Assembly: GCF_030580995.1 (NCBI RefSeq)
Contig: NZ_JAUQSZ010000005.1
Span: forward strand, 1-64,000
Length of the DNA stretch: 64,000 nt
Source of the DNA: Sphingomonas immobilis
GTDB taxonomy: Bacteria; Pseudomonadota; Alphaproteobacteria; Sphingomonadales; Sphingomonadaceae
Reading direction: 5' to 3'
Part shown: piece after piece, positions 4,344 to 51,697 of the stretch
Layout of the letters: every line of letters starts with the position of its first letter
Position numbering within the stretch: position 1 is the first letter of the stretch
Made by a program: the position numbers and the translations under genes
Notes under the pieces: generated by a model
Databases searched by the model: none
What the model was told of the DNA's origin: nothing
Seen by the model: only the letters and a program-made list of their open reading frames with translations

Positions 4344-4466
4344 GGCGAAGCCTTACGCCGCGACCGCACGCGGGTTAGCGCAGCTAACCCGCGAGAGCGG
4401 CGCTCGACCGGACGGCGGACGCGCGGAGCGCGATCCGGCCGACGACGCGGGATTTACTCCCGCGTC
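4341..4466 (+). repeat. three-hairpin compound element, copy 1 (after nusG)
   Basis: A small hairpin (TAAGGC/GCCTTA, 4341-4355) overlaps the nusG stop. It is followed by hairpin 3 (GCGGGTTAGC 4370-4379 with GCTAACCCGC 4383-4392), a CCGG/CGAC linker region with a short GCGC stem (4421-4431), linker CCGGCCGAC, and hairpin 1 (GACGCGGGA 4444-4452 with TCCCGCGTC 4458-4466, loop TTTAC). All pairings are visible directly. The order and linkers match eight other copies in this window. Confidence 0.85.
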
Positions 4467-4503
4467 CAAAGCCTCAGCGCCAGCGTCGCGCGGCCCACCC
4501 ACA

Positions 4504-4532
4504 TTGAATCCGTCACCATTCGATGCCATAAT
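4504..4532 (+). promoter_or_regulatory. sigma70-like promoter of vapBC
   Basis: TTGAAT (4504-4509), a 17-base spacer and CATAAT (4527-4532) lie 28 bases before the antitoxin ATG at 4560. GGAAGG at 4547-4552 can serve as ribosome binding site. Confidence 0.5.
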
Positions 4533-4559
4533 CCGTGCCTGAACACGGAAGGTCGCCCG

Positions 4560-4760
4560 ATGCGCACCACCCTCGCCCTTGACGACGATCTCATCGCGCA
4601 GGCGCAGACCTATACCGGGCTCACCGAGAAATCGGCGATCGTGCGCGAGGCGCTGAAGGCGCTGAAGGCGCTGATCCAGCGCGAGGCGGCGCACCGGTTG
4701 GCGCGTCTCGGCGGCAGCGATCCCGATGCCGCCGCTGGACCGCGCCGCCGCTTCGAATGA
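4560..4760 (+). CDS. vapB: type II antitoxin, VapB family
   Basis: A 66-residue protein: MRTTLALDDDLIAQAQTYTG is a ribbon-helix-helix N-terminus of the VapB/AbrB-unrelated RHH class, followed by a helix (EKSAIVREALKALKAL) and a charged tail that would wrap the toxin. Antitoxins of this family neutralise a PIN-domain RNase and repress their own promoter as a complex. The stop overlaps the toxin start (ATGA at 4757-4760), the usual coupling. The antitoxin looks intact while the toxin is frameshifted. Confidence 0.85.
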   Translation: MRTTLALDDDLIAQAQTYTGLTEKSAIVREALKALKALIQREAAHRLARLGGSDPDAAAGPRRRFE

Positions 4761-5117
4761 GCGAATTGCTCGTCGATACGGGCGTCTGGATCGATTTCCT
4801 TCGAGGCGGCGATGCGGCCCTCAGCGAAGCCTTGCTGGAAGAGCGCGTGATAGGCCACATCCTCGTTACCGGAGAGATCGCGATGGGGAGCCTCGCTGAC
4901 CGCAGCCTGCCCCAGGCCGTCCGCGCGGACGATGCCGAAGTGCTGGCGATGGTGGAGCAGCGGCGGCTGTTCATCCTGGGCCTCGGCTGTATCGATGCGC
5001 ATCTGCTGGCTGCCACCTTGCTGACAGCGGGGCAAGGCTGGGACGCACGACCGGCGGCTGCACGAGGCGGCGGAGGGGCTCGGGATTGCGGCAGCGGAAC
5101 TTGCGAAGCGGCGCTGA
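4757..5117 (+). pseudogene. vapC: frameshifted VapC-like PIN-domain toxin
   Basis: From ATG 4757 the frame encodes a PIN domain (LLVDTGVWIDFLRGG; acidic residues D7, E40 and D80 in GCIDAHLLAATLL) and then, near 5035-5043, turns into a low-complexity Gly/Arg/Ala sequence. In the +1-shifted frame the expected ending continues: THDRRLHEAAEGLG, then AAAELAKRR and a stop at 5115-5117. That frame contains the fourth acidic PIN residue (D of THDRRL). So a net one-base insertion or two-base deletion has broken the toxin. The shifted product runs on to 5299 as 180 residues. Known VapC proteins are about 130 residues RNases. A sequencing error is the alternative explanation. Confidence 0.8.
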
Positions 5118-5262
5118 CCGAACGGCGGATCGCGGAACGCGCGCTCCTGCGCGAAGAAATTCCTTTTAATCCTCCGCCACATATCGCGCTTCCGCAGCAA
5201 GCACCCTACATCGCGCGGCAGGAGGGGATCTTGCACGCCGGGGACGGCGGATGGAGACCCGA

Positions 5263-5805
5263 ATGCAGCTTCCTTTCCGTGCTATCGCGCTTGCCTTGAC
5301 GGCTCTCGCCCTGCCCGCCGCCGCCGAGCCGATGCGCCCCGGCACGGTCAGCGTCGTGCTGACGACGCCGGGCGGCAGCGCCGAGGCCGAGCGGCCGGTG
5401 ATCGACGCGGTGCAGCAGGCGCTGTCGGATGCGGCGTTCGTCGTCATGCCGACGGCGGGGCACAGCCGCTATATCGCGCAGATCGCCGTCGCGCAGGAGG
5501 ATCGCGGGTCCGTCACTGCCAGGACCGTGCCGGGCAAGGCGACCGGCAGCGTCGGCGGCTGGGGTGCGCAGGGGAGCGTCACCCTGCCCTCGTCCAAGCG
5601 CGCGTTGCGCGATCTGGTGATGACCGAGTTGAAGGTGACGCTGGTAACGCGCGCGAACGGCAAGGCGGTGTGGAGCGGCCGCGCCACCACCGCGCAGGTC
5701 GAAGGCACGCGACAGGGCGACCCGGCGGCGGTGTTCGGCAAGCTGGCGACGGCGGTGCTGTCGCGCTTTCCGGGGGCGGCGACGGGGTTGATCTCGGTGC
5801 CTTGA
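5263..5805 (+). CDS. hypothetical exported protein
   Basis: About 180 residues, with a signal peptide (MQLPFRAIALALTALALPAAAEP) and a mature part of alternating beta-type segments including VVMPTAGHSRYIAQIAV and KAVWSGRATTAQVEG. ATG 5263 is chosen over ATG 5251 because GGAG at 5253-5256 is spaced well for it and it gives a clean signal peptide. No family is recognised with certainty. The pattern resembles small DUF4136-like periplasmic proteins, but that is a guess. It stands alone between the vap pair and a compound repeat that begins 13 bases after its stop. Confidence 0.65.
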   Translation: MQLPFRAIALALTALALPAAAEPMRPGTVSVVLTTPGGSAEAERPVIDAVQQALSDAAFVVMPTAGHSRYIAQIAVAQEDRGSVTARTVPGKATGSVGGWGAQGSVTLPSSKRALRDLVMTELKVTLVTRANGKAVWSGRATTAQVEGTRQGDPAAVFGKLATAVLSRFPGAATGLISVP

Positions 5806-5818
5806 GGGGGTCGGAGGC

Positions 5819-5962
5819 GACGCGGCATAGCCGCGTCGTCGGACGGGTTCGCGTTCCGCGACCCGCCGGCCGGTCCGGCGCGTCTCGAGACTAGCTGCGC
5901 TAATCGCGTGTGCGCTCGGACACCGGCCGGTCCGGTGCGTCTCGTGATTAGCTGCGCTAATC
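5819..5962 (-). repeat. three-hairpin compound element, copy 2
   Basis: Hairpin 1 is GACGCGGC (5819-5826) with GCCGCGTC (5830-5837). It is followed by linker GTCGGACGG (5838-5846), hairpin 2 GGGT-t-CGCG with CGCGACCC (5845-5864), linker CGCCGGCCGG, and two tandem versions of hairpin 3. The second version is perfect (GATTAGC 5946-5952, GCTAATC 5956-5962). The last arm contains the TAG stop of the minus-strand gene ending at 5957. The doubled end (CCGGCCGGTCCGG repeated) suggests a local duplication. Confidence 0.85.
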
Positions 5963-50954: not shown

Positions 50955-50980
50955 ATGGGGCTTTCCGGGGGAGGACAAAA

Positions 50981-51018
50981 GAAAAGGAGCCGCACCGTAT
51001 CCGGTGCGACTCCTTTTT
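50981..51018 (-). terminator. terminator of the alpha operon after rplQ
   Basis: On the minus strand AAAAAGGAG-T-CGCACCG pairs with CGGTGCG-G-CTCC and is followed by TTTTCTTTTG. It lies 50 bases past the rplQ stop. Confidence 0.88.
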
Positions 51019-51031
51019 CAAGCCGTCGAGC

Positions 51032-51074
51032 GTCGCGGCAGAGCCGCGTCGTCGGCCGGAGCTACGCTTACGCG
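51032..51074 (-). repeat. three-hairpin compound element, copy 8 (truncated, at rplQ)
   Basis: Hairpin 1 is CGCGGC (51034-51039) with GCCGCG (51043-51048). It is followed by linker GTCGGCCGG (51051-51059) and a short remnant GAGCTACGCTTACGCG that overlaps the rplQ TAA stop. Hairpin 2 is missing. Confidence 0.7.
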
Positions 51075-51487
51075 TCCTCGTAATCATCCGCCTCGATGAC
51101 GGGGCCCGAATCCTGGCCCTTGGCCGAGACGTCGCGGTCGACGAATTCGATGATCGCCATCGGCGAGGCGTCCGACGCGCGGATGCCGGCCTTGATGATG
51201 CGGGTGTAGCCGCCGTTGCGATCGGCGTAGCGCGAGGCCAGCACGTCGAACAGCTTCACCAGCTGCGCGTCGTCGAGCAGGCGGGCATGCGCGAGACGGC
51301 GGTTGGAGAGACCGCCCTTCTTGGCGAGCGTGATCAGCTTCTCGACGTACGGGCGCAGTTCCTTCGCCTTGGCGACGGTGGTGGTGATCTGCTCGTGCTT
51401 GATGAGCGCTGCCGACATATTGCGGAACAGCGCGATGCGGTGGGCCGAGGTCCGCTGAAGCTTACGGCCGCCTACACGGTGACGCAT
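51068..51487 (-). CDS. rplQ: 50S ribosomal protein L17
   Basis: A 139-residue protein: MRHRVGGRKLQRTSAHRIAL, then FRNMSAALIKHEQITTTVAKAKELRPYVEKLITLAKKG and a C-terminal GGYTRIIKAGIRASDASPMAIIEFVDRD. This matches L17 with a typical acidic alphaproteobacterial tail. It lies near the polypeptide exit tunnel. It ends the rpsM-rpsK-rpoA-rplQ operon. A compound element separates it from rpoA. Confidence 0.97.
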   Translation of the reverse strand: MRHRVGGRKLQRTSAHRIALFRNMSAALIKHEQITTTVAKAKELRPYVEKLITLAKKGGLSNRRLAHARLLDDAQLVKLFDVLASRYADRNGGYTRIIKAGIRASDASPMAIIEFVDRDVSAKGQDSGPVIEADDYEDA

Positions 51488-51566
51488 TGGATAGTCCTTT
51501 TCGTTCGTTAAGGGGCCGGTTCAAGGAACCCCAGACCAGGTGGGGACGGTCGGCCCACCCTATCTT

Positions 51567-51593
51567 CCGTCATCCCCGCGAAGGCGGGGATCC
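51567..51593. repeat. CCGTCATCCCCGC palindrome
   Basis: CCCCGC (51574-51579), GAAG, GCGGGG (51584-51589), with flanking CCGTCAT and ATCC. A member of the CGTCATCCCCGC family, in the 216-base rpoA-rplQ gap. Confidence 0.7.
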
Positions 51594-51611
51594 ATGTTTC
51601 CGCAGGCACTA

Positions 51612-51697
51612 CGCCGCTGCAAAGCCGCGTCGTCGATCGGGCTTGCAGCCCGTCGGCCGGGCTGGCGCCGTCTCCGGGTTCGCTCACGCAAACCCGG
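51612..51697 (-). repeat. three-hairpin compound element, copy 9 (after rpoA)
   Basis: Hairpin 1 is degenerate (GCCGC..GCAAAGCCGCG, 51612-51631). It is followed by linker GTCGATCGG, hairpin 2 CGGGC (51638-51642) with GCCCG (51648-51652), linker TCGGCCGGG, and hairpin 3 CCGGGTTCGC (51674-51683) with GCAAACCCGG (51688-51697). Hairpin 3 ends 7 bases from the rpoA stop codon. Confidence 0.85.

Follow-up and report, generated by a model that had tools for sequence, protein, structure and literature searches.

Repetitive extragenic palindromes (REPs) are the closest described relatives of the element reported here. According to Di Nocera et al. (2013; PMC3733652), REPs of the GTAG and CGTC types sit at the 3′ ends of genes, where GTAG ones often supply a TAG stop codon. 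A CGTC REP is described there as a single hairpin of 8–9 bp that has AT pairs at its base, a CCA tail and CGTC as an unpaired tag, and the CGTC families as occurring mostly in alphaproteobacteria, including sphingomonads, with no dedicated transposase. REP-like repeats are often read as transposition debris; here, in a 64,000-nt stretch of Sphingomonas immobilis (RefSeq assembly GCF_030580995.1, contig NZ_JAUQSZ010000005.1, positions 1 to 64,000 of the forward strand; hereafter the window), we describe a family of three-hairpin elements kept at orthologous positions behind core genes, with stems that are rewritten yet paired. The element has a characteristic architecture, a strong orientation relative to genes and a placement behind their stop codons, it is positionally orthologous at rplL and rpoA, and its stems covary. 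We read it as a dispersed RNA element of the 3′ untranslated region (3′-UTR), close behind stop codons and predicted to form a barrier at mRNA 3′ ends, an interpretation to which the sequence evidence leads us to give about even chances.

Followed in the direction of the gene whose transcript would extend into it, the element runs stop codon, hairpin 3, hairpin 2, hairpin 1. Hairpin 2 is built on CGGCGG...CCG-N-CCG with one bulged base, in the orientation of the window GTCGG-M-CGG...CCG-CCG-GCCG, where M is the bulged base, restricted to A or C by the strict pattern used below and T in some further copies. The motifs GTCGGMCGG and CCGGCCG, which a previous reading made from the letters of the window (the sequence-only reading) had taken for linkers between hairpins, are actually the base of hairpin 2 (CGG-M-CGG...CCG-CCG). 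Hairpin 1 is near-perfect, with about 9 bp and usually a 3-nt loop, commonly TTT or TTC in the sense direction. Hairpin 3 has as its core a hairpin or a three-way junction, enclosed by an outer stem that often adjoins or takes in the stop codon. The TTAGC/GCTAA core that had been assigned to hairpin 3 throughout is common, not universal, and is accompanied by the outer stem; in type A, the type of the copy that had been placed at 36373 (e.g., 36370–36493), the core is a three-way junction, GGCGMTGCGC..GCGCACCGGCGCG..CGCGCCTKCGCC by our reading of the printed copies, and the 3′ arm of hairpin 1 is shared with the base of hairpin 2. Outer arms found within the genome include GGCTAACGC/GCGTTAGCC, TTGAAGGCG/CGCCTTCAA and GTTGAGGCG/CGCCTCAAC.

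The core pattern GTCGGMCGG-N8..38-CCGKCCG has six matches in the window, whereas dinucleotide shuffles average 0.08 and none of 100 reaches six. Across the whole 4.13 Mb genome this strict pattern has 53 matches against three for the same pattern read backward, a few of the 53 being chance-looking matches inside genes. A covariance model of the core of hairpins 1 and 2, built from 11 copies of this genome including one from the window (the 15666 copy), matches all nine places at which the sequence-only reading had proposed copies. Two genome models gave 58 and 31 matches (E-value up to 0.01), which merged into 78 stretches; two of these were dropped (an antisense duplicate and a weak, chance-like match) and 76 used. 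A third model adds two copies, which brings the genome to about 78 with truncated ones counted. Such counts are lower bounds, with 150 candidates scored per genome in the single-genome scans, and the 21217 copy was missed by the model genome-wide and found in a local scan. Pairs of elements in opposite orientation, hairpin 1 facing hairpin 1, were observed in this genome at C11:318608-/318677+, C11:431052-/431135+, C3:46236-/46309+ and C2:182210-/182603+.

The family extends well beyond this genome. The core model matches 163 of 201 genomes of the genus, the window's own included, and 28 of 149 genomes of the family. Of the latter 28, 26 belong to other genera, with up to 24 matches in a single one of these. 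A class-wide sample yielded 2 of 385 genomes, both in the window's own genus, under a stricter threshold and with 15 candidates scored per genome, so that members can be missed; 39 and 29 candidates per genome were scored in the family and genus scans, and all these counts are lower bounds. Because the strict pattern came close to its backward control in many of the 149 family genomes, the covariance models were used for range instead. In public genome contigs, the matches listed for the strict pattern likewise look like chance ones from GC-rich genomes.

Genes were called by codon usage (GC by codon position 0.66/0.46/0.88). For 64 of the 76 copies, an opposite-strand gene has its stop codon facing hairpin 3; gene ends lie on the hairpin 3 side only in 35 copies, on the hairpin 1 side only in 9 (p ~1e-4 for 35 vs. 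9), on both sides in 29 and on neither in 3. After removal of copies with no gene or with a stop codon more than 140 nt away, 61 were left, and the stop codon lies within 65 nt of the start of hairpin 2 in 55 of them, at a median of 49 nt, or about the length of hairpin 3. Depending on the test, dropping extreme hairpin 3 lengths reduced the 61 to 54 or 58, or to 50 distinct copies. The outer stem can reach into the gene itself: a Watson–Crick run of at least 7 that includes the stop codon or coding sequence is present in 17 of 54 native copies vs. 120 of 2862 arm-swapped ones, as at groEL, where TTC-TGA-TTTTC is paired with GAAAATCAGAA. TAG is over-used as the stop codon at element-bearing gene ends (19 of 61 vs. 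21 of 141 called genes, p 0.012). Forty host genes (39 of the 61, and nusG) were put through family scans with their proteins truncated to 366 aa; 28 had matches at E-values up to 1e-20, some of these matches falling short of the curated cut-off. Host genes include nusG, infC, lepA, rpoD, rpsI, groEL, dnaN and ssb, together with those for CTP synthase, ribonucleotide reductase beta, succinate dehydrogenase and isocitrate lyase; rplL, rplQ and rpoA, identified by separate family matches, also belong to them.

Several of these positions are shared between species. Among the 29 relatives nearest by rplL, which were the ones examined, 25 have the element 3′ of this gene. For rpoA, rplQ was found in 196 of the 201 genus genomes, and 68 of these loci were taken; 58 of them yielded the rpoA end, and the element lies 3′ of rpoA in 47 (core matches at E-values up to 0.034). 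It also lies 3′ of nusG in the one relative seen (G312).

At rplL and rpoA the stems have been rewritten yet remain paired, which amounts to strong covariation. The rplL alignment (24 relatives and the window, 25 rows, after removal of one of two identical relative rows from 25) was made with MAFFT from sequence alone and not fitted to structure. Paired cells make up 94.9% of it, vs. 78.6 ± 0.9% in shuffled versions and 31–40% with partners slid; there are 129 double-changed cells vs. 40.3 and the covariation score is 0.428 vs. 0.144, none of 500 shuffles reaching any of these measures. The rpoA alignment, likewise from sequence alone, comprises 26 of 47 rows, those with a longer hairpin 2 or longer spacers having been left out by eye. 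It has 91.1% paired cells vs. 75.4% shuffled, 107 double-changed cells vs. 32.8 and a score of 0.398 vs. 0.133 (0 of 500 shuffles each), while the number of pair types was matched by 4 of 500. The shuffles ignore the relatedness of rows, whereas the slid-partner versions keep it. Stem changes at both loci are thus more complementary than expected by chance. Concerted evolution by gene conversion between loci was also considered and rejected, as rplL and rpoA copies of the same genome (e.g., G296 and G321) differ in hairpin 1 type on informal comparison.

Exchanging arms between copies points in the same direction, as swaps make folding less favourable on average in each of the nine tests (three hairpins in three sets). 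For hairpin 3 of the rpoA set, the mean weakens from −26.3 to −15.3 kcal/mol and 76 of 2050 chimeras are as stable as native, and for hairpin 3 of the rplL set 25 of 500 are. The claim that arms differ between copies yet stay complementary holds, and for hairpins 3 and 2 a comparison of species shows it better than one of this genome's own copies.

We infer that this structure is selected as RNA rather than as DNA, from the orientation of the element, its covariation and its loops: among 85 four-nt loops, 24 are GNRA tetraloops on the sense strand and none is of the reverse-complement type, a count in which related sequences are not independent. The 3-nt GNA and TNC loops are balanced, with 25 each. 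As an RNA, the row of hairpins would block or stall 3′-to-5′ exonucleases, and such a block would set mRNA ends and half-lives, stabilising or separating messages. Between rpoA and rplQ, the element would give the two parts of a shared message separate stabilities. Ribosomes that terminate at the stop codon are predicted to melt the outer stem.

Several observations weigh against a conserved RNA barrier. The element is missing at 4 of 29 rplL and 11 of 58 rpoA orthologous sites; among the 11 rpoA exceptions, L417 has a copy without most of hairpin 2 and L432 only a hairpin like hairpin 3. Two relatives have a counterpart of gene 36494–36835 without the element, one has such a counterpart of gene 21671–22897 (52% identical over part of the length), and three (G296, G312 and G321) lack it at the 3′ end of rplQ. 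Absence at some orthologous sites implies that the element is dispensable there. In the window's own genome, 12 of the 76 copies have no called gene ending toward hairpin 3, and the effect of arm swaps is weakest, 823 of 2442 chimeras of hairpin 2 and 478 of 2450 of hairpin 3 being as stable as native. G-T mismatches number 79 vs. 63 A-C among 4071 pairs, counted symmetrically (p 0.10), and by set 31 vs. 16 at rpoA, 17 vs. 18 at rplL and 31 vs. 29 in own-genome copies, so that a G-T preference expected of a typical structured RNA is not seen at rplL or in own-genome copies. Furthermore, U-tract terminators occur at 7 of 58 element-bearing gene ends vs. 10 of 76 ends without the element, in a search reaching 60 nt past the element vs. 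160 nt at element-free ends (144 kb, tandem genes less than 60 nt apart omitted). As they are about equally rare with and without it, no terminator-replacing role is visible. One locus without the element 3′ of rpoA (L386, relative G338) has instead a hairpin and a seven-T run within about 60 nt of the stop codon.

Among the alternatives, a REP-like parasitic repeat is unlikely. It would have been spread by an unknown or lost transposase and tolerated behind stop codons because insertions elsewhere were purged, bringing no benefit, and its arms would have been needed by the transposase or an enzyme processing single-stranded DNA. The roughly 78 dispersed copies, the patchy distribution between genera (26 of the 28 positive family genomes lie outside the genus), the absences at orthologous sites and the hairpin 1-to-hairpin 1 pairs would all suit such a repeat, as would the bulge of hairpin 2, a feature of E. 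coli REPs (PMC8266576). The type-A subfamily fits as well: at least 16 copies, as aligned from this genome, have very similar hairpins 1 and 2 (mean column identity 85%), suggesting that this subfamily spread more recently. However, a search for the Y1 type, the only transposase type searched, finds none in this genome or in 10 of 13 copy-bearing relatives, and decaying insertions would not be expected to persist at rplL and rpoA while their stems change and still pair. In our reading of the 3′-UTR element, dispersal is likewise of the REP kind, with no recognised transposase, and the arms subsequently diverged, likely by paired changes.

We also regard as unlikely an element acting at the DNA level, with a cruciform or single-stranded DNA role (as a protein site or for relief of supercoils behind strongly transcribed genes) and arms kept perfect largely by template-switch mutation, in which one arm is copied into the other. 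Its appeal lies in the pairing, which is nearly all Watson–Crick by the mismatch counts above, and in the changes between nearest-neighbour stems, 107 of which are paired vs. 43 one-sided (6 distant edges skipped), a comparison in which the tree-building favours paired changes; outer arms that mirror gene-specific stop-codon sequence fit it too. Template switching has been described as producing multi-base compensation in RNA hairpins (PMC8794818). Strong gene orientation and GNRA loops on the sense strand only are nevertheless unexpected if both strands were equal, and G-T mismatches lie slightly above the expectation from base composition (p 0.002). Since pairing is almost purely Watson–Crick, part of the complementarity could come from template-switch mutation and not from selection on structure alone, and we infer that the RNA structure may be kept partly by this route. 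The earlier claim that structure and not sequence is selected accordingly stands in so far as covariation in two ortholog sets and the arm-swap chimeras lies far above controls, while the near-pure Watson–Crick pairing leaves room for template switching.

A bolder form of the RNA reading, which we consider rather improbable, is a self-rewriting, genus-wide 3′-UTR switch, in which the stop codon of the gene would be part of one strand of the outer helix. Each ribosome terminating there would pull this helix apart and an untranslated message would close it, so that the element would inform the decay machinery whether core genes, rplL, rpoA and nusG among them, are being translated, with template switching letting the sequence drift while the fold is kept.

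An intrinsic terminator was rejected, since a GC-rich hairpin with a direct U-tract is not what the copies contain: a T run of at least 4 right after hairpin 1 is found in 1 of 54 own copies, 0 of 25 rplL orthologs and 1 of 47 rpoA orthologs. Very improbable, finally, is a transcription terminator or Rho-related stop signal needing no U-tract, which would suit stable GC-rich hairpins near stop codons, genes ending on both sides of 29 of the 76 copies and a T-run hairpin within 120 nt downstream of only 4 of 54, but not the separate hairpin with a T run within 60 nt 3′ of the element at rplL in 23 of 25 relatives, the scarcity of T runs beside hairpin 1 (1 of 54), the loss of rplQ that a stop between rpoA and rplQ would entail if the two are co-transcribed, or the other gene ends that lack U-tract terminators about equally often.

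The nine copies of the window, which the sequence-only reading had presented as sharing one layout, differ in completeness and strand: the one it placed at 51032–51074 is truncated, hairpin 1 of the one at 6871–6997 is interrupted by about 40 nt, and those at 4341, 6871 and 21181 lie on the minus strand. The copy 3′ of nusG (4344–4466, minus strand; gene 3807–4343 on the plus strand, identified by family match) has hairpin 2 at 4409–4443 and hairpin 1, GACGCGGGATTTACTCCCGCGTC, at 4444–4466, with a model match at 4409–4469. Behind nusG and its element, the region 4560–5110 contains a VapB antitoxin gene (Pfam match); the stretch 4757–5050 after it has no Pfam family match, and the toxin partner has perhaps decayed. 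A plus-strand copy with two tandem hairpin 3 units follows at 5816–5978 (hairpin 1 at 5819–5837, hairpin 2 at 5838–5872; model match 5816–5872). Its hairpin 3 units, 5866–5921 and 5923–5978, are 91% alike, the first beginning in the last bases of hairpin 2 and the second containing the stop codon of the minus-strand gene 5957–6817. The copy with the interrupted hairpin 1 spans 6871–7000 on the minus strand, with hairpin 3 at about 6871–6906, hairpin 2 at 6907–6940 and a model match at 6907–7000.

A complete plus-strand copy at 15669–15765 comprises hairpin 1 (15669–15687), hairpin 2 (15688–15716; model match 15666–15716) and hairpin 3 with its outer stem (15717–15765), and abuts the stop codon (15766–15768) of a minus-strand aminotransferase gene (15766–16932). 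Behind rplL (gene 20784–21164, ribosomal L7/L12 match), the minus-strand copy at 21165–21273 begins with hairpin 3 directly past the stop codon and has hairpins 2 and 1 within 21217–21273; a terminator-like hairpin with TTATT lies 3′ of it at about 21290–21321. Two further plus-strand copies abut stop codons of minus-strand genes, namely 21582–21670 at gene 21671–22897 (hairpins 1 and 2 at 21582–21633, the model match; hairpin 3 at 21634–21670) and the type-A copy 36370–36493 at gene 36494–36835 (model match 36370–36421).

The last two copies belong to the rplQ–rpoA region, both on the plus strand. The truncated one (51029–51067; hairpin 1 and the start of hairpin 2; model match 51029–51058) lies between the rplQ stop codon and the U-tract terminator of that gene (ribosomal L17 match). 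The one between rpoA (family match) and rplQ, at 51610–51703, has hairpins 1 and 2 at 51610–51659 (model match) and hairpin 3 at 51660–51703, and adjoins the rpoA stop codon (51704–51706, minus strand). Single hairpins resembling CGTC REPs as described in PMC3733652, CGTCATCCCCGC..GCGGGGATCCA, were observed at about 51568–51594, some 15–20 nt from the rpoA copy, and at about 36321–36347. A recurring leader precedes rplQ at about 51491–51564 (minus strand) and in the same place in relatives, consisting of a hairpin followed by approximately CTGGTCTGGGGT..CC and ACGGCCCCTTAACGAACGA; it is also present in relatives L384 and L391, where rpoA was not found beside rplQ, and may be an uncatalogued ribosomal-protein leader.

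Because REP-like repeats here occupy orthologous positions with rewritten, paired stems, they are well suited to examining two questions: does an RNA function maintain dispersed palindromic repeats, and does compensation in stems arise by sequential selection or in single template-switch events? The motif is also absent from Rfam release 15 and could be used for annotating a common genus. In the window, Rfam gives a single match above cut-off, a tRNA, and none for the element, and the loci of three relatives gave two matches at E-values up to 0.1, both far below cut-offs. The earlier remark that no named family with this layout was known agrees with these searches, although the element is of the same kind as published REP and CGTC-REP repeats; the literature searched, a partial collection, yielded no description of the family. 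Rhizobium-specific intergenic mosaic elements (RIME, with A, B and C motifs) are composite palindromic repeats between alphaproteobacterial genes. They are other candidate kin, judged by their general description.

Like REPs, the family is made up of numerous extragenic palindromes that are scattered over the genome and placed at the 3′ ends of genes (about 78 copies; in 64 of 76, hairpin 3 faces a gene end), and with structured RNAs it shares pair covariation beyond sequence-preserving controls. It fits the definition of neither the GTAG nor the CGTC REP superfamily. A RAYT-mobilised GTAG REP was rejected, as the Y1 transposase family PF01797 has no match in this genome, and the near-invariant 5′ motif is GTCGG, with its CGG paired in the modelled fold; the CGTC type does not fit, as inspection of the copies by eye shows GACG/CGTC paired within hairpin 1 and no CCA tail. 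PF01797 is present in 3 of 13 copy-bearing relatives and absent from the other 10; apart from this genome, none of the five with the most family-scan matches has it. Together with the Rfam search, these results give no sign of a known repeat family with a transposase, Y1 being the type searched.

The category itself is not new, given the resemblance to published REP and CGTC-REP repeats that lie 3′ of genes and overlap stop codons. Similar to CGTC REPs as described in PMC3733652, the family consists of multi-copy palindromes near gene 3′ ends with no dedicated transposase; unlike them, it has a three-hairpin layout, lacks an unpaired tag and differs fully in its stems between copies. Template-switch maintenance of hairpins (PMC8794818), inferred from the histories of RNA genes, is a mutational route that would give such stems and not a family of elements. 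The pairs with hairpin 1 facing hairpin 1 recall the head-to-head dimers of REPs. The REPs and BIMEs of E. coli (PMC8266576) are likewise dispersed palindromes, often composite and with a bulged stem, and have GTAG at one hairpin end where the present element has GTCGG. In contrast to them, the element has no GTAG, is found here in a genome with no RAYT, and combines a fixed three-part order with genus-wide positional orthology and compensatory rewriting of its stems.

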